From Chryseobacterium sp. SORGH_AS_0447 (GTDB lineage Bacteria; Bacteroidota; Bacteroidia; Flavobacteriales; Weeksellaceae): a stretch of DNA of 64,000 nt. The stretch covers positions 3,280,501-3,344,500 of the forward strand of contig NZ_JAUTAR010000001.1 in NCBI RefSeq assembly GCF_030818695.1, read 5' to 3'. A program made the translations under genes and the position numbers. The notes beneath the pieces are model-generated. The model searched no databases. It was given only the letters and a program-made list of their open reading frames with translations, and had not been told where the DNA came from. This document shows positions 52,507 through 60,354 of the stretch, in pieces (the first letter of the stretch is position 1; every line of letters starts with the position of its first letter).

Positions 52507-54193
52507 ATGAAAAAGATTATTATTTCCCTCATCTTATTTTCTTCCACAGTTTCAGCACAATACACAGACATCAATATTGTAAAGGAAGTTAAGGTAAAGA
52601 ATAAAGGTGTTGTTGTTTCCGCGCACCCGTTGGCGAGCGAAGCCGGAGCGAAAATCCTAAAAGCGGGCGGAAATGCTTATGATGCCATTGTTGCCACGCA
52701 GTATGCCTTAGCTGTCGTCTATCCGCAGGCCGGAAATATCGGCGGTGGCGGATTTTTGGTAGGAGTTAAAAACAACGGTGAAAAGTTTACGCTTGACTAT
52801 CGGGAAACAGCACCCCGTAAAGCTTCGCACGATATGTATGTCGATAAGAACGGGAAGGCTGATACGAATCTTTCACAAAACGGTAGGCTGGCCGTCGGTA
52901 TTCCGGGAAGTGTTGCCGGATTTTTCGCTACGTTAAAATACTGCAGGCTTCCCATGAATCAGCTGATTCAGCCGGCCATCGACTTGGCCGAAAAAGGATT
53001 TGCCATTACCGAACAGGAAGGCGGGCTTATTAAATTCCCATAAAGAACAGTTTCAAAAACACAATTCATCTTCTTTTGCTTTTATTAAAGATGCTCCGTG
53101 GAAAGCGGGTGATATCCTGGTACAGAAAGAGCTGGCTGAAACACTACGATTGATTCAGAAAGAAGGTTTAAAAGGGTTTTACCAGGGAAGAACCGCCAAA
53201 TTGCTGGTCGCTGAAATGAAACGGGGAAACGGGATCATTACCTCAGAAGACCTGAAAAATTATAAAGTGGCGGAACGAAAAGCGCTGGAGTTTGACTATA
53301 AAGGAAGTCACGTTGTTTCGATGCCGCTGCCTTCAAGCGGCGGAATTCTTCTTGCCCAGATGCTGAAAATGGCGGGATACGAAAATCTGGAAAAATACCA
53401 GCAGAACAGCACAAAAGCTGTTCAGATCATGGTGGAAGCCGAAAGAAGGGCTTTTGCCGACAGAGCCGAATATATGGGCGATCCGGATTTTATTCAGGAT
53501 AAAACCGCATACCTGATTTCTGATGATTATCTCAGAAACCGATGGAAAAGCTTCAGCTTTAGCAAAGCCACCCGAAGTGCAGAAGTGGGCAAAATTATCA
53601 GGCAGCCGAAAGAATCTACAGAAACAACCCATATTTCCGTCATCGATAAAGAAGGCAATGCCGCTGCCGTTACGACAACCCTGAACGGATTGTACGGCAG
53701 TAAAGTCATCGTTTCCGGAGCCGGGTTTTTCCTTAATAATGAAATGGACGATTTCTCCATTAAACCCGGCGTTCCGAATATGTTCGGTGCGGTGGGCGGC
53801 GAAGCCAATTCCATTCAGCCGAATAAAAGGATGCTTTCTTCGATGACGCCCACCATCGTCCTAAAAAACGGAAAACCGTATATGGTTGTCGGAACCCCGG
53901 GCGGGACAACTATTCCTACCTCGGTTTATCAATCGATTGTGGATGTTATTGATTTTAAATTAAATGCCAACATTTCCGTTAATTCCCCGAAATTCCATCA
54001 CCAATGGCTTCCCGAAGCTGTTGCCTTTGAAAAGAACTTCCCTGAGACCACCATTAGTGAGATAGAAAAACTGGGCTACAAAGCCGAAAGATGGAACCAG
54101 ATCGGCAGAACCGAAATGATCCTGATTGATGAAACCGGAAATATTCATGCGGTCGCCGATGGCCGCGGCGATGATTCTGTGGCGGTGGAATAA
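52507..54193 (+). pseudogene. ggt: Gamma-glutamyltransferase gene with one frameshift
   Basis: The frame from ATG 52507 (signal peptide, then GGNAYDAIVATQYALAVVYP, NIGGGGFLVG, DYRETAPRKA) stops at 53043 with GGLIKFP. The rest continues in the +1 shifted frame: AGLLNSHKEQFQKHNSS, the catalytic Thr in TTHISVIDKEGNAAAVTTT, NNEMDDFS and GTPGGTTIPTSVYQS, to 54193. Removing one G from the GG at 53020-53021 (GAAGGCGGG to GAAGCGGG) restores a ~561-residue protein of normal GGT length. GGT degrades glutathione in the periplasm. All catalytic motifs survive, so a recent mutation or sequencing error is likely. Confidence 0.9.
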
Positions 54194-54237: not shown

Positions 54238-55467
54238 CTATCCTGCGTAAAGCTGCTCAAAATAATTCCCCAGGGTTGCCAGGCGTTCATGGCTGTTATG
54301 GTTGATGTAGTTCAGGAACATCTTTTCCGTACTGTGGCCGGTGGCCTGCATCAGCAAAGGAGTCGGGATCTTTCCATAGAAGTTGGATGCGAAGCTCCGC
54401 CTGCCGATGTGGCTGCTGATGACTTCCCATTTTTTTACAAAAGTGTCCTCCGAACGGTGGCCGGTTCGCTTTCTGGCATTGATCTGTTCATTGATCCCTG
54501 CCAGTCTGGCAATCTTCCTGATCCGGCGGTTATAAATGTCATGGTCGATGGGATCGGGAAAGCAATAGTCATTTTCCTTCAGAATATTCAAAACAACAGG
54601 ATGAAGCGGAAGAATAATTTCTTTACGTGTTTTCTGCTGTATAAAAGTAATATACATCCGGCTCCCTGTTTCCGAAAGCTGACTTTTATTGAAAACCATG
54701 AAATCTGAAATCCGCTGTCCCGTATAGCAGCTGATCAGCAGCCAGTCTTTGGCTGTTACATATTCTTCAGGAACTTCGGTCTGCTTTATTTTTGCGATCT
54801 CAGATTCGGTAAGGATAATGATGCGGGCAGGCTTTTTCTCCCTGCGGACTTCCAGTTCCCGTACGTGGGTTACCATTCCTTTTTTTTCAGCAAAATTCAG
54901 GATGGTCTTTACAAAATGAATAGTCCTGTGAAGCGTATTTTCGCTGTACTCCTCTTTTTTTCCGAAGATAAAAAAATCACGGACAAACTCTGCATTGATA
55001 TTTGTGAGGATCAGACGTCTATGAAGAAACCCTTCAAAACGTTGGAGAAGCCTGAAGAATACGAGATAGCGTTTGTACGTAGAATGGCAGATCATCTCTT
55101 TACGGACAGTGATATAAGAAAGAGTAAGGCTTAGAAATGAATTTTCCGGCTGCTGCAAAGCCTTGGCTGTGATGATTTCACTAAGCTTTTTTGAAATTCC
55201 TGTCTTGGTAACTGCTTTCTTACCCGTTTTGCGCTGCCTGATGTATTCAGCCAATTCCACTTTAATACGATCCAAAACCGCGCTGATGTTTTTATTTTTT
55301 TTCAGGTAAATATTTTTCGGACGTTCCTTTTCAGCATCCCATTCCTGAGGAGCCATCATGATACCGGTAAGAAAAACAAAATCCAGACGAAATGACTCAT
55401 CCAGAACACGTAGATAAATAGGGCCGGAAACTTTTTGTGTTTCCGGAAGATAAAAAGTAAAATTCAT
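54238..55467 (-). CDS. Tyrosine recombinase (phage-integrase family, candidate DNA invertase)
   Basis: This is a 409-residue protein. An arm-binding-like N-terminus (MNFTFYLPETQKVSG ... APQEWDAEKERPKN) and a SAM-like core-binding domain (about 105-210) precede the catalytic domain: first Arg in SCYTGQRISDF, Lys around QQKTRKEIILPL, HxxR in SSHIGRRSFAS, His in ATGHSTEKM and the nucleophile Tyr in FLNYINHN. All catalytic residues are present. Bacteroidota invertases and transposon integrases share this layout. Its upstream region carries two inverted core-like sites, and its apparent promoter lies between them, so inversion of that segment is its likely local job. Confidence 0.92.
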   Translation of the reverse strand: MNFTFYLPETQKVSGPIYLRVLDESFRLDFVFLTGIMMAPQEWDAEKERPKNIYLKKNKNISAVLDRIKVELAEYIRQRKTGKKAVTKTGISKKLSEIITAKALQQPENSFLSLTLSYITVRKEMICHSTYKRYLVFFRLLQRFEGFLHRRLILTNINAEFVRDFFIFGKKEEYSENTLHRTIHFVKTILNFAEKKGMVTHVRELEVRREKKPARIIILTESEIAKIKQTEVPEEYVTAKDWLLISCYTGQRISDFMVFNKSQLSETGSRMYITFIQQKTRKEIILPLHPVVLNILKENDYCFPDPIDHDIYNRRIRKIARLAGINEQINARKRTGHRSEDTFVKKWEVISSHIGRRSFASNFYGKIPTPLLMQATGHSTEKMFLNYINHNSHERLATLGNYFEQLYAG

Positions 55468-55512
55468 TGGTATATTTAATCATTTTCTGGCTGCTAAAAT
55501 AACAATAAAAAG

Positions 55513-55532
55513 TAGTCCTATCTAGACTACTT
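55513..55532 (+). repeat. Left inverted repeat / recombinase core-like site
   Basis: TAGTCCTATCTAGACTACTT is repeated in reverse complement at 55716-55735 (20 of 20). With the two bases upstream the site reads AGTAGTC, CTATCTA, GACTACT: 7-bp inverted arms around a 7-bp asymmetric spacer, the usual build of a tyrosine recombinase crossover site. Confidence 0.85.
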
Positions 55533-55715
55533 ATATGCACAAATATAGACAAAATATTGATACCACAAAAAAAAATAAAACATTGTTTTATAAGTATTTA
55601 TAACTCATCCATAAGTGTTTATTGTTTAAAAAAATTACTGTTTTCGTTTGCTTTAATATAAATCTTCATCAAAAACACAATATAAATTATTGAACTGCAA
55701 ATCAGTTGAATGCAA
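55533..55715. other. Candidate invertible promoter segment (183 bp)
   Basis: This very AT-rich segment between the two inverted core-like sites has no gene. It carries a near-consensus promoter on the minus strand toward the recombinase (55540-55569) and a weaker promoter-like pair on the plus strand (TTG 55622-55624, 18 bp, TTCGTTTG 55643-55650). Inversion would exchange which side each promoter serves. Confidence 0.65.
55540..55569 (-). promoter_or_regulatory. Promoter inside the invertible segment, now facing the recombinase
   Basis: On the minus strand TTTG (55569-55566), an 18-bp spacer and TATATTTG (55547-55540) match the flavobacterial consensus well. The predicted start of transcription is about 55534, at the very edge of the left repeat, 67 nt before the recombinase ATG (55467). 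Confidence 0.7.
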
Positions 55716-55735
55716 AAGTAGTCTAGATAGGACTA
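55716..55735 (-). repeat. Right inverted repeat / recombinase core-like site
   Basis: This is an exact reverse complement of 55513-55532. Read on the minus strand the site is ATAGTC, CTATCTA, GACTACT. The spacer CTATCTA is identical to the left site but in opposite orientation, so recombination between the two would invert rather than delete the 183 bp. Confidence 0.85.
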
Positions 55736-56325
55736 TGTTTAAAATTAGAGATGTAAAACAAGCATTAATCTGACAACTTAATGTTCATTTATTCAGAACC
55801 GAATGCGTTTAAGAATAACTTTAATTTAGAGAAAACGATAACCACTAGTATAAACTATAAGTAGAAGCATGACAATTTTTTAATTACAAGATAAACACAA
55901 TACAGAACATGATGAAGAACACAATTTTTATACTTACTTCGGAACAAACCGCTCCAATCCTTTTAATATAGGACACAGATATTTTCTGCCACAAATCCAA
56001 GACCGCTTTGTTTTCCGATTCTTATTTCTAAAAAAAATTCTCAGGAGTTTCTTTTAAAGGTATAAAGATCAATCCGAAATTCTTATCAAAGGATCAGGTT
56101 TGCGATACAAAAGAATCAGAAATTTTAATGAATAATAAAAACCTGAAAAAGTATGATAATTAAAACGGCACCAACATAAAATATGAAATTCTAATAAAAA
56201 AGTAATGATGATTGATCTATTAAAGTATCTGTGGTTTAATTATAATAGATGACCAACTCGTATATAACTGCTTTTTATATACTGATCTTTAATTATTAAT
56301 ATAACAACCTTTTATAAAATTTCAA
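55736..56325. other. 590-bp AT-rich stretch without a gene
   Basis: It lies between the right inverted repeat and the first VGIN gene. No frame longer than about 30 codons with a plausible start was found and no clear promoter or terminator was seen. It would be a long 5' leader if the VGIN genes are driven from the invertible segment, or it may be the decayed remains of a gene. Confidence 0.5.
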
Positions 56326-56571
56326 ATGAAAAAAACATTATTAACGGCCGGTATTATTTTATCGGGCCTTGTTTACAGCCAGGTAGGCATCAACAACAAT
56401 ACACCCAAAGCGACATTGGATGTGACTGCAAACACCACTGACGGCAGCAAGCCGGAAGGAATGATTGCCCCTCGCCTGACCGGCGACCAGATCAAATCTG
56501 CTGATGCCAGCTACGGAACCGATCAGAAAGGAAAATTGATCGGGATTAAACTTAAACAGGCTCATAGATAA
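56326..56571 (+). pseudogene. Truncated VGIN surface-protein gene
   Basis: This is an 81-residue frame. A signal peptide (residues 1-18) is followed by QVGINNNTPKATLDVTANTT and GMIAPRLTGDQIKSADASYG. In the full-length members of this group that I recall, a YGTDQ.G block is followed by a long C-terminal region. Here the sequence leaves the pattern after YGTDQKGK and stops within 12 residues. It may be a 3'-truncated paralog or a short secreted peptide. It is 34 bp upstream of the 601-residue VGIN gene. Confidence 0.65.
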
Positions 56572-56605
56572 AAAAAATATCATTTAACACAAAAAATCTG
56601 AAAAA

Positions 56606-58411
56606 ATGAAATACATACATAATTTGTTCACGTTAATATTTTTTATTAATATCAATATATCTGCACAGGTGGGCATCAATACAGACAAGCCCAATGCATA
56701 TGCTGGGCTTCATATCTCTGAAAGGAAAGATCCGGCAAGCACAAATCCCGACAAATATAATGGGATCATCATTCAGCGTTATACCGAAGCACAGCGGGAT
56801 ACGCAGCTTACTCCGAATATGACTGCCGGGCAAAACAGTCTGATGATATTTAATACCACCGAAAACTGTTACAACTATTGGAACAGTGAAGATAATGAAT
56901 GGAAAAGCCTTTGCGGACGATTTGGAAAAGGCACGTTTTCTTATAATTGTAATGCAGATGTGACTGTTCATGGTATTTACAGCAAAGGAAAAGAACTCAC
57001 TACATCCCATTATCTTAGTGTCAAAGTAACGGTTACAAAACCTGGATCTTATGAGATTGCAGGAACAACCAACAATGGATACAACTTTTACAAGACGGGG
57101 ACTTTTCTGACGACCGGCAGCTTTACAGTGAATATTCCCGGAACTGGGATCCCGGCAAATACTAACACTGCAGGTGGTGGCGATACTGTAGCTATTACAA
57201 ACAATGGAGTTTCTCAGCCATGTTCTCCACCTGTACAGGTCCCGGTACTTCCGGACTCGGGAACATACACTATGAGCTGCGGTTCGGCTATTGTGAATGG
57301 AGTTTATAAAGTAGGTACCGCACTTACTTCAAGCAATACCATTACTTTACCGGTAAATGTGACAGCGTTGGGAAGCTATACCGTTACCACCAACACGGTG
57401 GACGGAATTTCTTTTAGTGCTTCAGGTACTTTTACAGCAACAGGTAACCAAAACATCACGCTAAACGGGACAGGAACACCCACCTCTACAGCTATAAAAA
57501 AGTTAACGATAACATCAGATAGCGAGGGTGGCGTTTCCAAATCGTGTAATGTAAATGTGATTGTAGTTATTCCTAAAAAAATATTATTGACTATAGGAAC
57601 TTCTCCTAATGGATATGGTTATAATTTTTCCGGTACAGCAGCCTCAAATGGACTTATCACAACGGCAGCTAATTATGGAACGCTTGCTAATAGCGTCGTT
57701 AAATATGAAGGCTGGGACCAGATCATAAACGGAACAAATGCACCATCAGCAGCTCAGCTTACTGGTTGGACAACAGGCAGCAATCCCGTAGACATTATTG
57801 TAATAGGGTACTCTTGGGCAGCAAGTACCACCGAAGCCCAAATACTTGCAAACTATATTGCGAAAGGAGGCGTTGTATTGGCATTCTCTGAAAGCACCGG
57901 GGGGATGCAAAACTTATTAAGAATAGTATTTGATGCTTCAGTTTCTACGGGAAGTATAAATAGTGCGGGCGCGTTGTACAAATTACCTCTCACAAATGAT
58001 TCTATTTTGAATGGCCCTTTTGGTGACATCAGGGGATTACAATGGGGAGAAGATGCTTCCTCAACAACTTACGCCACGGGATTACCTTCCAGCGAAATAA
58101 CTGTATATTCTGGTGATACCAATATATCAACAGCTAATCCGGCAGGAACCATAGGCCGTGTTACAGCATTCAGGCACAATACCCTCAATTTTATTTGGGT
58201 AGGTGATGGCGGTTTTAACTCTAATAATGGCGGTACTTCGGATACTATTTGTCCATTCGTTTTAAATGCCAACAATTTTCCTGTATTTAAGCCTAATTAT
58301 GGAAATGGAGCTGCTGCTTATAAGATGAATGTATATAATTCAATATTTACAGCCAATGCTTTTGCTTGGGCTCTCGACAAAGCGGAGCACAATGGTATTA
58401 ATAAATATTAA
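56606..58411 (+). CDS. Secreted VGIN surface protein with two internal repeats
   Basis: This is a 601-residue protein. A signal peptide (residues 1-20) is followed by QVGINTDKPNAYAGLHISER. Two ~95-residue beta-rich repeats come next: GTFSYNC...GVSQPC (about 109-205) and GTYTMSC...GVSKSC (about 220-315), each with paired Cys and a TFTATG/TFLTTG strand. The C-terminal half (320-601, VDIIVIGYSWAASTTEAQIL, YIAKGGVVLAFSE, WVGDGGFNSNNGG) looks like a separate alpha/beta domain recalling ThuA/GATase-like folds, a tentative call. It is probably exported and surface-exposed, and lies downstream of the candidate promoter switch. Confidence 0.8.
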   Translation: MKYIHNLFTLIFFININISAQVGINTDKPNAYAGLHISERKDPASTNPDKYNGIIIQRYTEAQRDTQLTPNMTAGQNSLMIFNTTENCYNYWNSEDNEWKSLCGRFGKGTFSYNCNADVTVHGIYSKGKELTTSHYLSVKVTVTKPGSYEIAGTTNNGYNFYKTGTFLTTGSFTVNIPGTGIPANTNTAGGGDTVAITNNGVSQPCSPPVQVPVLPDSGTYTMSCGSAIVNGVYKVGTALTSSNTITLPVNVTALGSYTVTTNTVDGISFSASGTFTATGNQNITLNGTGTPTSTAIKKLTITSDSEGGVSKSCNVNVIVVIPKKILLTIGTSPNGYGYNFSGTAASNGLITTAANYGTLANSVVKYEGWDQIINGTNAPSAAQLTGWTTGSNPVDIIVIGYSWAASTTEAQILANYIAKGGVVLAFSESTGGMQNLLRIVFDASVSTGSINSAGALYKLPLTNDSILNGPFGDIRGLQWGEDASSTTYATGLPSSEITVYSGDTNISTANPAGTIGRVTAFRHNTLNFIWVGDGGFNSNNGGTSDTICPFVLNANNFPVFKPNYGNGAAAYKMNVYNSIFTANAFAWALDKAEHNGINKY

Positions 58412-58429
58412 TCGATTTTAATATTTTGG

Positions 58430-58640
58430 TTTTCAAACCATCCGTATGAAACAAATGATGAGAGAGAAGGTTGCAGAAAGCGGGATAGAAATATCCCGCA
58501 TCTGTAATCTTATGAAATGTACCAAGGATGATATAGGGAAATGTACCTGTCCAATGATCTGGATCCAAAAATACTTTTAATATAAAGCAAATTGCTAATA
58601 TCAAAAGGAGAAATATCCTTTTACTAATTACTGCTAGCTT
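58430..58640 (+). pseudogene. Decayed copy of the small HTH 'transposase-like' gene
   Basis: The frame at 58446 (MKQMMREKVAESGIEISRIC, NLMKCTKDDIG) aligns with residues 7-40 of the protein at 58988 (RVYETEIEHMRICKFFDCTEKEI). After DDIG the match continues in a shifted frame (MYLSNDLDPKILLI, then a stop where Trp is expected, then SKLL). The upstream frame without an ATG (GFQTIR) matches NFKKIH. So it is a frameshifted, truncated paralog. Confidence 0.7.
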
Positions 58641-58987
58641 ATCACTGACTTCTATATTAACGTGAATTCGACAGTATTTAAATAGAAATAAACTAAAAAA
58701 GAAGGAGGGTGATCAGAAATCTTCAAATAGTCTCCTTTTAAAAGATGCGCCATAAGATCCTGTGCTATATAAAACTGTTAATCAAATGTTTACCAAGTAT
58801 ACAGCCAGCCTGTCTACTTCGAGATTACGTTATCTAAAACTTTAGATCGAAGGTACTGTAGCATAATCATCAAAATATCCCAATGCCTTCAATTAAATAC
58901 AGAACCTATTTCAATACAAATTGTTAAATCATAACAATGCGAAAAGCGGGCTGAAACCGATATTTTAAAATAAAAACATAAAAGATA
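58641..58987. other. Gap between HTH pseudogene and HTH gene
   Basis: This ~350-bp AT-rich stretch contains an imperfect hairpin near 58706-58745 (AAGGAG ... CTCCTT followed by T) that may be a terminator. Nothing else was identified. Confidence 0.35.
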
Positions 58988-59446
58988 ATGAATTTCAAAA
59001 AAATACACATCGGAGAACTGATCAAACAGCGGGTATACGAAACCGAAATCGAACATATGCGGATCTGTAAATTCTTCGACTGCACTGAAAAGGAAATCGC
59101 TGAAATGTATGAAGCTGAAAACCTATACCCGGATGTGATTATGAAATGGTGCAAGCTTCTAGAATACGATTTTTTCAGAATCTACACTCAGCATTTGATC
59201 CTTTACGCTCCTATTAATCAAGAGAAATACAGCAAGAAAAAAACCGGTAAATCAGCATTGCCTTCCTTCCGTAAGAGCATTTATACCCAGGAAGTCATCG
59301 AATTTATTTTAGAGCTTATCCTTACCGGCCAGAAAACCAAAACAGAAATCATAAGTGATTATAACATTCCTAAAACAACTTTATATAAATGGCTGCAAAA
59401 ATACAGTGCAACAGAGGGGAAAAAAGAAAAAAACAATGATGTATAA
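58988..59446 (+). CDS. Small HTH protein of the Chryseobacterium 'transposase-like' group (larger type)
   Basis: This is a 152-residue protein. The N-terminal half (IHIGELIKQRVYETEIEHMR ... CTEKEIAEMYE, then WCKLLEYDFFRIYTQHLILY) resembles a small regulator-like helical domain. The C-terminal half (IYTQEVIEFILELILTGQKT, then IISDYNIPKTTLYKWLQKYS) is a helix-turn-helix of the IS3-OrfA type. No transposase catalytic domain, inverted repeats or OrfB follow, so a DNA-binding regulator is at least as likely as a mobile-element protein. A decayed copy lies at 58430. Confidence 0.75.
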   Translation: MNFKKIHIGELIKQRVYETEIEHMRICKFFDCTEKEIAEMYEAENLYPDVIMKWCKLLEYDFFRIYTQHLILYAPINQEKYSKKKTGKSALPSFRKSIYTQEVIEFILELILTGQKTKTEIISDYNIPKTTLYKWLQKYSATEGKKEKNNDV

Positions 59447-59616
59447 AATAAGCGTCTATAACTTTATTCAAACTTCAGCTTGTGTCTGCACATTTAACAG
59501 ATCATACGATCAAGAAAATAGACAAAAAATGTTTACATCTTACAAGAATTATATTCATCATAAAGAATATTTCAACAGGATTAATCTAACGTATTAAATG
59601 AGTGTAACATAATATA

Positions 59617-59835
59617 ATGACGATGAAGAATAAAAGAAAAAATAAAACTCCACAAAATATAGTGCTCATCGGTAAAAAAAAAGCAGAAATCACTAAAATT
59701 CTAGGTGAGAATTATACGATTGACCTGGATGGGAATATGGTTTATACGATAAGAAGAATGGTTTTTTTCACTCAGAGGATTTGTATTGGATTTAACGAAG
59801 CCGGGATTAGCGACAGCATTCACAGCGTGGGTTGA
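59617..59835 (+). CDS. Small protein, function unknown
   Basis: This is a 72-residue protein with a basic N-terminus (MTMKNKRKNKTPQ), then KKAEITKILGENYTIDLDGN, a strand MVYTIRRMVFFTQRICIGF and a short tail. The order (helix ending LGE, then Tyr-containing strands ending in F) recalls the small BamE/SmpA fold, but there is no signal peptide and the resemblance is weak. It sits between the two HTH genes. Confidence 0.5.
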   Translation: MTMKNKRKNKTPQNIVLIGKKKAEITKILGENYTIDLDGNMVYTIRRMVFFTQRICIGFNEAGISDSIHSVG

Positions 59836-60036
59836 TTTTCATCTCTGTTATACAGGAATATTTACACAACTTAATATCATACTTGGAAGGTCTAATACAT
59901 TCAATGAATGCTTCCGGCATCACCAGATACTATTGCAGGATAAGAATACTTACACTTGAATCCAGATATTCTCATCATAATCAGCTCCCTTGCTATCAAG
60001 CATTACATTTAATACTATTAAAAACAATTATTATCT

Positions 60037-60354
60037 ATGAAGCATCCAAACTATAAAAAAATTTATGGCGATATGATTACCATGAAGTTTCCCGATAAGC
60101 AGGAAATCTGCAGGAGCATACTCGACAAATCGAAACTAAGCACCATTGATATCATCGATCTACAAAAAAAAATATTCGGAATAGATAATATTTCAATGGG
60201 ACAGTCTAATCAGCGCTATAAATCCTACGACAAATCTACGATACTGAAAATCTTAGACTATCAAGAGAAGAACGGACTTAACAATAATGAACTGGCAAGA
60301 CATTTTAATTTAAGCAGAAATACCGTAGCCAAATGGAAAAAACTGTTTCAGTAA
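60037..60354 (+). CDS. Small HTH protein of the Chryseobacterium 'transposase-like' group (smaller type)
   Basis: This is a 105-residue protein with an N-terminal helical region (HPNYKKIYGDMITMKFPDKQ, STIDIIDLQKKIFG) and a C-terminal helix-turn-helix (KSYDKSTILKILDYQEKNGL, LARHFNLSRNTVAKWKKLF). It has the same general design as the 152-residue protein at 58988 but another family. It has no catalytic transposase part. A DNA-binding or regulatory role is inferred. Confidence 0.75.
   Translation: MKHPNYKKIYGDMITMKFPDKQEICRSILDKSKLSTIDIIDLQKKIFGIDNISMGQSNQRYKSYDKSTILKILDYQEKNGLNNNELARHFNLSRNTVAKWKKLFQ

Follow-up and report, generated by a model that had tools for sequence, protein, structure and literature searches.

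Introduction

Gut Bacteroidales are the best-known hosts of promoter invertons. In the enterobacterial fim switch, the tyrosine recombinases FimB and FimE flip a short segment carrying a promoter, with a possible bias towards one orientation; the FimB and FimE genes are not driven by this invertible promoter. The locus described here differs from fim in that its promoter is also aimed at the recombinase gene, and in its sites and its cargo.

The compared excerpts of the literature (PMC12632263, PMC4747536, PMC5903667, PMC8375218) describe Bacteroides fragilis BF2766 (Tsr19), with the invertible promoters IVp-I (local) and IVp-II (distant). In the cultured inoculum, about 1% of the cells had IVp-I in the ON state, and this fraction rose in the mouse gut. 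The excerpts also describe two master invertases of B. fragilis, i.e. Mpi, which acts on 13 regions, and Tsr0667, which acts on three gene clusters and nine other regions (PMC4747536). For Flavobacteriia, inversion signatures are described in one of five samples (PMC5903667). A search of open-licence full text retrieved no report of an invertible promoter of the present layout in Chryseobacterium or Flavobacteriales. Promoter invertons are thus known from Bacteroides, and the shared-promoter layout looks new.

We analysed a window of 64,000 nt from Chryseobacterium sp. SORGH_AS_0447 (contig NZ_JAUTAR010000001.1, positions 3,280,501 to 3,344,500); all coordinates below refer to this window. Like Tsr19, the locus has a tyrosine recombinase gene beside a small, predicted invertible promoter for surface products, while Tsr19 also acts on a distant promoter. 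In the excerpts, the Tsr19 gene is not described as driven by an invertible promoter, unlike the recombinase gene here. Further differences from the described Tsr19 system are the spacers, which vary by pair, the cargo (a VGIN protein and the proteins F1 and F2), and the position of the segment between recombinase gene and operon, so that one promoter can serve only one of the two. The likeness to Tsr19 is a likeness of working, judged by description. We consider it likely (probability about 0.8) that the locus is a promoter-inversion switch, i.e. a tyrosine-recombinase inverton, whose single promoter is contested by the recombinase gene and the VGIN operon. It would be a compact case of a switching enzyme and switched genes sharing one promoter in this way.

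Recombinase gene and site pair

54238–55467, minus strand: tyrosine recombinase, predicted invertase, 409 aa (Pfam PF13102 and PF00589 above cut-off)
55511–55531, no strand: P, recombinase-proximal recombination site predicted from the sequence, AGTAGTC-CTATCTA-GACTACT, spacer 55518–55524
55717–55737, no strand: D, operon-proximal recombination site predicted from the sequence, AGTAGTC-TAGATAG-GACTATG, spacer 55724–55730
55518–55730, no strand: predicted invertible segment, spacer to spacer, about 210 bp (pair in 48/52 related loci, opposite orientation in 3/77 pairs)

The initial annotation had placed a tyrosine recombinase gene beside a repeat, and this was confirmed by an open frame of 409 codons and the domains Phage_int_SAM_5 and Phage_integrase, both above their cut-offs. 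The combination of Phage_integrase with a SAM-like domain assigns the enzyme to the tyrosine type and not to the serine type, to which Mpi belongs. R252, K279, H353, R356, H378, and Y387, which we take to be the catalytic residues, do not vary across an alignment of 33 relatives. The sites are therefore adjoined by an intact tyrosine recombinase gene, as in other invertons, and its product would be the enzyme acting on the flanking pair. A profile of the recombinase had no sequence match in the PDB at an E value of 0.001.

The inverted repeat (55513–55532 and 55716–55735) is complementary at 20 of 20 positions, as had been claimed, with a distance of 183 bp, and can be extended to 25 nt at 92%. 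It is the longest exact inverted repeat in 55468–56326; 1000 dinucleotide shuffles gave a mean of 10.4 and a maximum of 15. The D spacer is the exact reverse complement of the P spacer, in agreement with the proposal of one spacer in opposite orientations. The proposal that each repeat contains 7-bp arms holds for P, whose 7-bp arms are perfect, and is slightly overstated for D, because its outer arm matches at only five of seven bases.

The arm motif alone, with up to three mismatches, is found twice in the window versus 0.99 expected, which is not significant (25 of 100 shuffles reach two), unlike the exact paired repeat. The exact pattern TAGTC-N7-GACTA occurs at six places in the 4.37-Mb genome, which form three pairs, each adjoining a recombinase gene of the same clade. 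About 0.4 places were expected from pentamer counts in the window, an estimate that is rough, because a backwards control pattern occurred at 24 places versus 12 estimated in the same way. The repeat is thus not a common dispersed element. Each of the three pairs lies beside its own recombinase gene, and an arrangement of one enzyme with many pairs is absent from this genome.

Site pairs and spacers in related loci

The site pair was present in 48 of 52 related loci of the genus that carry a recombinase of the same clade, at about −270 and −65. Among these 48 loci the 7-bp spacers have 30 different forms, and they are identical within the pair in 47; in 10,000 permutations, the mean number of matching pairs was 2.5 and the maximum 10. 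The two spacers of the single exception, L038, differ by one base. A scan with the arms only, ignoring the spacers, retrieved exactly two sites in 46 of the 52 loci (background 0.005 sites per 450 bp), and the spacers matched exactly in 44 of these 46. A tree of 45 recombinases requires two changes of the arm letter (A or C, 43 rows) and 30 of the spacer; as judged from the sequences, the arms follow the recombinase tree. The 30 spacers are a natural series for the rule that partner sites must match. Within the family, the exact site-pair pattern was found in 36 of 320 genomes and 7 of 33 genera.

The Pfam families of the recombinase are also those of integrases, so the enzyme could serve a mobile element as integrase, and the repeats could be what is left of the element's attachment sites. 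This is very improbable in view of the arrangement of the sites: in 48 of 52 loci they form an inverted pair spaced by about 200 bp on the same flank of the gene, and the operon beside them is of the same kind across loci. The relatives on mobile elements are also distant: the viral contigs contained 23 loci with 23–38% identity to the recombinase, and the plasmid collection 19 records with 23–31% identity, all from Bacteroidales, and neither set contained a member of the recombinase clade. A further contig collection yielded two loci, both already within the searched genomes.

Promoter and start of the recombinase transcript

55540–55569, minus strand: promoter TTTG-18-TATATTTG aimed at the recombinase gene, −7 element at 55540–55547 (motif match)
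55499–55537, minus strand: predicted 5' end of the recombinase transcript, with the site hairpin and then a T-run, putatively attenuator-like (fold −10.1 kcal/mol)
55690–55710, no strand: palindrome TTGAACTGCAAATCAGTTGAA near the D end, used as an orientation mark (sequence)

A promoter between the repeats and facing the recombinase gene had been proposed, and a search with TTTG-17to20-TAnnTTTG on both strands of 55401–56400 retrieved the minus-strand promoter at 55569–55540 as the sole match. It is of the Bacteroidota type and is flanked by the inverted sites, as is typical of invertons. An exact TAnnTTTG lies 6–13 bp from the P site and faces the recombinase gene in 45 of 48 loci. The promoter at 55540–55569 is predicted to be functional. 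Some loci, e.g. L052, L072, and L078, also have weaker promoter-like matches within the segment that are directed at the operon.

At least six T within the seven nt after the site were found at P in 22 of 48 loci and at D in 2 of 48 (background about 3%). The T-run is thus present in less than half of the loci, which counts against a damping of recombinase synthesis at this position. The palindrome motif TGnAAATCA was located no more than 60 bp from the D end in 9 of 48 loci; only L057 has it that close to the P end.

The divergent operon

56326–56571, plus strand: 81-aa ORF, apparent truncated VGIN start (matches the N-termini of longer VGIN proteins at other loci)
56606–58411, plus strand: VGIN surface-type protein, 601 aa (ORF; by eye, a hydrophobic start followed by QVGINTDKPNA)
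58988–59446, plus strand: F1, helix-turn-helix protein, 152 aa, at the operon end (HTH_Tnp_1 just below cut-off; alignment A1)
60037–60354, plus strand: F2, helix-turn-helix protein, 105 aa, after F1 (HTH_28 and HTH_23 below cut-offs; alignment A2)

The initial annotation had proposed that surface-protein and helix-turn-helix genes at 56326–60354 are the targets of the flipped promoter. The frames of the 601-aa VGIN protein, F1, and F2 are open, and the 601-aa protein matched no family in Pfam or NCBIfam. The first VGIN ORF appears truncated, with 590 bp between it and the D site, and in this window the beginning of the operon looks decayed; for comparison, the first divergent gene is found within 80 bp of the D site in 20 of 47 loci. 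Between the D site and the first divergent gene, an exact TAnnTTTG facing the operon was found in none of 47 loci, with 6.7 expected from mononucleotide shuffles.

The F1 family is represented in 38 of the 52 loci, with all 41 members on the divergent strand, and the F2 family in 36. A role of F1 and F2 in the inversion machinery was considered and rejected: F1 was found in 166 of 173 genomes, frequently as several copies, and also at four loci without a switch in this genome. Because of this wide distribution, we assigned both proteins to the operon.

Orientation of the segment

The orientation was compared for 77 pairs, i.e. those of the genus loci, of G161, and of ten genomes of other genera. 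The promoter points away from the divergent operon in 74 pairs and toward it in three, namely L057 (G066), L198 (G316), and L197 (G293), the latter two from two other genera. As a comparison between relatives, both orientations therefore occur, which had been named as a check of the switch. Inversion has thus happened, yet the operon-OFF orientation dominates.

L197 and L198 were called flipped by promoter position. For L057, promoter position, palindrome position, and alignment score agree: the direct orientation failed to win in 43 of its 47 comparisons, versus 2 to 20 of 47, counting ties, for each of the remaining 47 loci. Percent identity of L057 with L047 is 0.70 inverted and 0.62 direct; the values for unflipped pairs are 0.61/0.62 (L047 and L043) and 0.62/0.62 (L048 and L043). 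The call does not rely on percent identity, because this value cannot separate the orientations in AT-rich segments. Neither end of the segment carries an exact −7 element in L055 or L070, and these two loci were oriented by alignment score alone; the −7 element of L188 is inexact. A contig break within the segment of G015 was considered as a sign of mixed orientation and rejected; both contig ends run into homopolymers.

The strong excess of one orientation indicates that flips seldom occur, are biased, or are counter-selected, and a freely reversible switch is not what the assemblies show. In G161 the bias is not explained by a need for recombinase expression, because the operon is also OFF in all 11 of its pairs without a neighbouring recombinase gene. 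If the recombinase shuts itself off by flipping, populations should end up with the recombinase off. The reverse is seen, which would require damped expression of the recombinase or selection against the ON state. The bias poses a testable question, i.e. what triggers the OFF-to-ON flip.

The shared orientation of 74 of 77 pairs would also be compatible with sites that are operators, bound by a recombinase-like protein that represses its own promoter, e.g. by DNA looping, without any recombination. The expected start of the recombinase transcript indeed falls at the P site, immediately downstream of the −7 element. This explanation is nevertheless quite improbable, since binding would need conserved arms and not spacers that are identical within 47 of 48 pairs and differ between pairs, the catalytic residues are invariant, and three loci have the opposite orientation. 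Autorepression may exist alongside inversion.

Another explanation, which overlaps with the preferred one, is a genuine switch that is locked or decaying in this strain, with a segment that stays recombinase-facing. The 81-aa VGIN remnant with 590 bp between the D site and the first gene, the two mismatches in the D outer arm, and the relative G013 (83% recombinase identity), in which the segment is oriented alike and the first called gene follows after 871 bp, are in line with it. It is unlikely, because the recombinase ORF has its full length and invariant residues, the 20-bp repeat and the promoter are exact, and the frames of the 601-aa protein, F1, and F2 are open.

Proposed mechanism

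In the promoter-inversion switch, the recombinase would bind the two sites with their near-identical arms, and strand exchange within the identical 7-bp spacers would invert the segment of about 210 bp (55518–55730). In the present orientation, the single promoter in the segment would transcribe the recombinase gene, and VGIN-F1-F2, for which no other promoter is visible, would be OFF. Once inverted, the promoter would transcribe the operon, and the recombinase gene would lose this promoter. The coupling of recombinase shut-off to surface-protein turn-on would follow from this anatomy. Pair-specific spacers would confine recombination to the own partner site, and the hairpin with T-run at the transcript start may lower recombinase production and thereby stabilise the OFF state. 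The comparison of sequences among relatives shows the site pairs, the spacer matching, the arms tracking the recombinase tree, the promoter direction, and the rare opposite orientation; the action of this recombinase on the sites, the activity of the promoter, the OFF/ON effect, the damping, and continued flipping in this strain are predicted. The initial interpretation as an invertible promoter switch is thus supported; neither a lack of flipped relatives nor a dispersed repeat, both of which would have spoken against it, was found.

A more far-reaching version, which is possible but doubtful, is a self-extinguishing heritable memory. The enzyme would be made only while the surface operon is OFF, and its own flip would turn the operon on and remove the enzyme's promoter, which would fix the new state. 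Where a genome has many pairs marked by their spacers and one close recombinase (G161, perhaps G204), this one flip would freeze all surface-protein switches in the combination reached, and the recombinase-side site would double as an attenuator that sets the rarity of the event.

Genomes with several site pairs

G161 has twelve pairs, one close recombinase, and two weaker recombinase matches, which suggests that its recombinase may act in trans on several pairs; six pairs were read in G204. One enzyme for many regions, as suggested for these two genomes, would resemble the descriptions of Mpi and Tsr0667, while Mpi is a serine recombinase and the enzyme here is a tyrosine recombinase. Unlike with Mpi and Tsr0667, exchange between loci would be limited by differing spacers, though some pairs within G161 and within G204 share a spacer.

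The predicted switch locus

The predicted promoter-inversion mechanism at the window locus is well supported by sequence comparison. Promoter inversion is a known kind of switch; the layout found here looks new. The locus, in a window (G000:C1:3280501-3344500) of a 4.37-Mb genome assembled as a single contig, comprises the following features:

54238-55467, minus strand, tyrosine recombinase, 409 aa
55511-55531, recombinase-side site AGTAGTC-CTATCTA-GACTACT, upstream of the recombinase gene
55717-55737, operon-side (distal) site AGTAGTC-TAGATAG-GACTATG, inverted relative to the recombinase-side site

The 20-bp exact inverted repeat is longer than any in 1000 shuffles (maximum 15), and a predicted minus-strand promoter, TTTG-18-TATATTTG, lies between the sites and ends 10 bp before the recombinase-side site. 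The initial annotation's inverted site pair with a promoter beside a tyrosine recombinase was thus confirmed. The divergent genes beyond the sites encode an apparent 81-aa remnant of a VGIN protein, a 601-aa surface-type VGIN protein (QVGINTDKPNA near its start, read by eye) and, farther along, the helix-turn-helix proteins F1 and F2. The stretch separating F1 from F2 holds two further short reading frames (59617-60056; 72 and 74 aa); of the 52 loci compared, L037 and L038 alone have relatives of them. On the other side, ORFs 52507-53043 and 53000-54193 overlap in different reading frames and resemble what we take to be a single gamma-glutamyltranspeptidase broken in two.

The repeat is not a common dispersed element unrelated to recombinases, a possibility raised at the outset. 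Exact TAGTC-N7-GACTA occurs at six places in the whole genome, i.e. three pairs, each beside a recombinase. The other two pairs, with spacers TTTCATA and TTTTATA, are upstream of recombinase paralogues (C1:3529049 and C1:3558455; 53 and 51% identical). About 0.4 places are expected by chance from pentamer counts in the window, an estimate that is rough because a backwards control pattern occurred at 24 places in the genome versus 12 estimated in the same way.

Site pairs and spacers in the genus

Recombinase matches at E 1e-30 or better were found in 76 of the 173 genomes of the genus, and the 52 loci with about 45% identity or more, window locus included, were fetched. In 48 of these, a site pair lies roughly 270 and 65 bp upstream of the recombinase gene start. 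The remaining four are L044 (a single good site), L079 (contig end within the segment), and L081 and L084 (contig start within the gene). Partner spacers are identical in 47 of the 48 pairs (10,000 permutations: mean 2.5, maximum 10), and 30 different spacers occur. L038 (genome G154) is the sole pair with a one-base spacer difference and represents a natural test of the spacer-matching rule. Because the first scan had chosen pairs by spacer similarity, it was repeated with the arms alone. Exactly two sites were then found in 46 of 52 loci, with exact spacer partners in 44 of them (exceptions: L038, with one mismatch, and L044); at this strictness a single site passes in L053, L058, L059 and L079, and no site in L081 or L084.

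A quick tree was calculated from 45 recombinases, omitting three split genes. On this tree the base that flanks the core arm (A or C, 43 rows) changes twice and the spacer 30 times. The arms thus evolve with their recombinase, and the two spacers of a pair drift jointly. Strand exchange inside the spacer would force partner spacers to drift in step.

Orientation of the promoter segment

An exact TAnnTTTG, the −7 element of Bacteroidota-type promoters, is located 6-13 bp short of the recombinase-side site and aimed at the recombinase in 45 of 48 loci, i.e. aimed away from the divergent operon (OFF). In L055 and L070 neither segment end carries it, and in L057 it sits at the operon side instead (ON). 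Interior alignment scores did not favour the direct orientation for L057 in 43 of 47 comparisons (ties counted). For each of the remaining 47 loci, L055 and L070 among them, this was so in 2 to 20 of 47. L057 clusters with the unflipped L043, L047 and L048 in the recombinase tree. A TGnAAATCA mark sits close to the operon end in nine of 48 loci; L057 alone has it close to the recombinase end. In such AT-rich segments, percent identity does not reveal the orientation: the values are 0.70 inverted and 0.62 direct for L057 versus L047, and 0.62 versus 0.61 and 0.62 versus 0.62 for two unflipped pairs.

One genome, G161, has 12 site pairs (loci L167-L178 and L199) and one close recombinase (E 6.5e-194), which may act in trans; two weaker matches have E values of 2.1e-74 (internal stop) and 1.9e-29. 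Eleven of the pairs have no close recombinase alongside. In all 12 pairs the promoter is aimed away from the operon. A VGIN protein is encoded behind eight (L169-L173, L176-L178), followed in seven by a protein of ~244 aa, mutually alike by eye; four G161 operons are cut by contig ends. The single ~244-aa protein tested matched HU-DNA_bdg and DUF4469, and of two VGIN proteins tested, one matched Lectin_C just above and the other Fibrinogen_C below the cut-off. Some G161 pairs have a spacer in common (ACACTTA, CCACTTA, ACACTCA), and one exact site (C30:70477) has no partner.

An exact pattern of two sites 180-210 bp apart matched 26 of the 173 genus genomes and 36 of 320 family genomes (7 of 33 genera), and its backwards control had zero matches in both searches. 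Ten genomes of other genera yielded 18 additional pairs, all with matching spacers (selected at one mismatch or less). Sixteen have the promoter facing away from the gene or operon on the divergent side, and two have it facing that side: L198 (G316), whose recombinase ORF spans 412 aa, and L197 (G293:C19), which is possibly locked ON because no recombinase beyond a 134-aa remnant was seen nearby. Taken together (48, 11 from G161, and 18), 74 of 77 pairs are OFF and three ON for the operon. L055 and L070 were assigned solely from alignment and L188 from an inexact motif; G233 and G234 are apparently one locus counted twice. Relatives with a flipped segment, as anticipated in the initial annotation, therefore exist (L057, L198, L197).

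Possible basis of the OFF bias

The recombinase transcript would start at the edge of its own site. The predicted hairpins have mean folding energies of −10.3 kcal/mol at the recombinase side and −8.6 kcal/mol at the operon side, and a T-run (six or more T within 7 nt) follows the site in 22 of 48 loci at the recombinase side and in 2 of 48 at the operon side (background ~3%). We infer that the recombinase-side site also acts as a weak terminator, holding the recombinase low; alternatively, the T-run letters could reflect a longer binding arm. An OFF bias linked to low recombinase has a precedent, because the B. fragilis promoter IVp-I is reported to be ON in ~1% of cultured-inoculum cells, increasing in the gut, and the bias is gone with extra recombinase (PMC4747536). 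A flip would turn the operon ON and remove the recombinase's own promoter; that this constitutes a self-freezing memory seems to us rather unlikely, at about one chance in four.

The putatively controlled operon

A first gene could be called in 47 of the 48 loci (all but L072). None of these 47 has TAnnTTTG in the operon direction between the distal site and that gene, versus 6.7 expected from mononucleotide shuffles. The first gene begins at most 80 bp from the distal site in 20 of the 47. A non-consensus operon promoter may lie outside the segment, and weaker promoter-like matches aimed at the operon are present within the segments of L052, L072 and L078.

Of the 52 loci, 38 encode F1 and 36 encode F2, and F1 precedes F2 wherever both occur. 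F1 is present in 166 of 173 genomes, far more than the switch, with eight copies in the window's genome. There, L133 (G000:C1:2966000-2980500) encodes F1, F2 and a second 601-aa VGIN protein whose start looks alike by eye; the locus has neither a recombinase nor a paired repeat. These distributions suggest a widespread operon type to which the switch has been added. In G198 and G201 (L186, L187, L189), the gene behind the distal site resembles a lipoprotein by eye, not a VGIN protein. The stretches read contain six pairs in G204 and three in G215, several not adjoining a recombinase; in L190, L192 and L193 from these genomes, VGIN-F1 units follow in succession, each behind its own site pair, with mostly distinct spacers.
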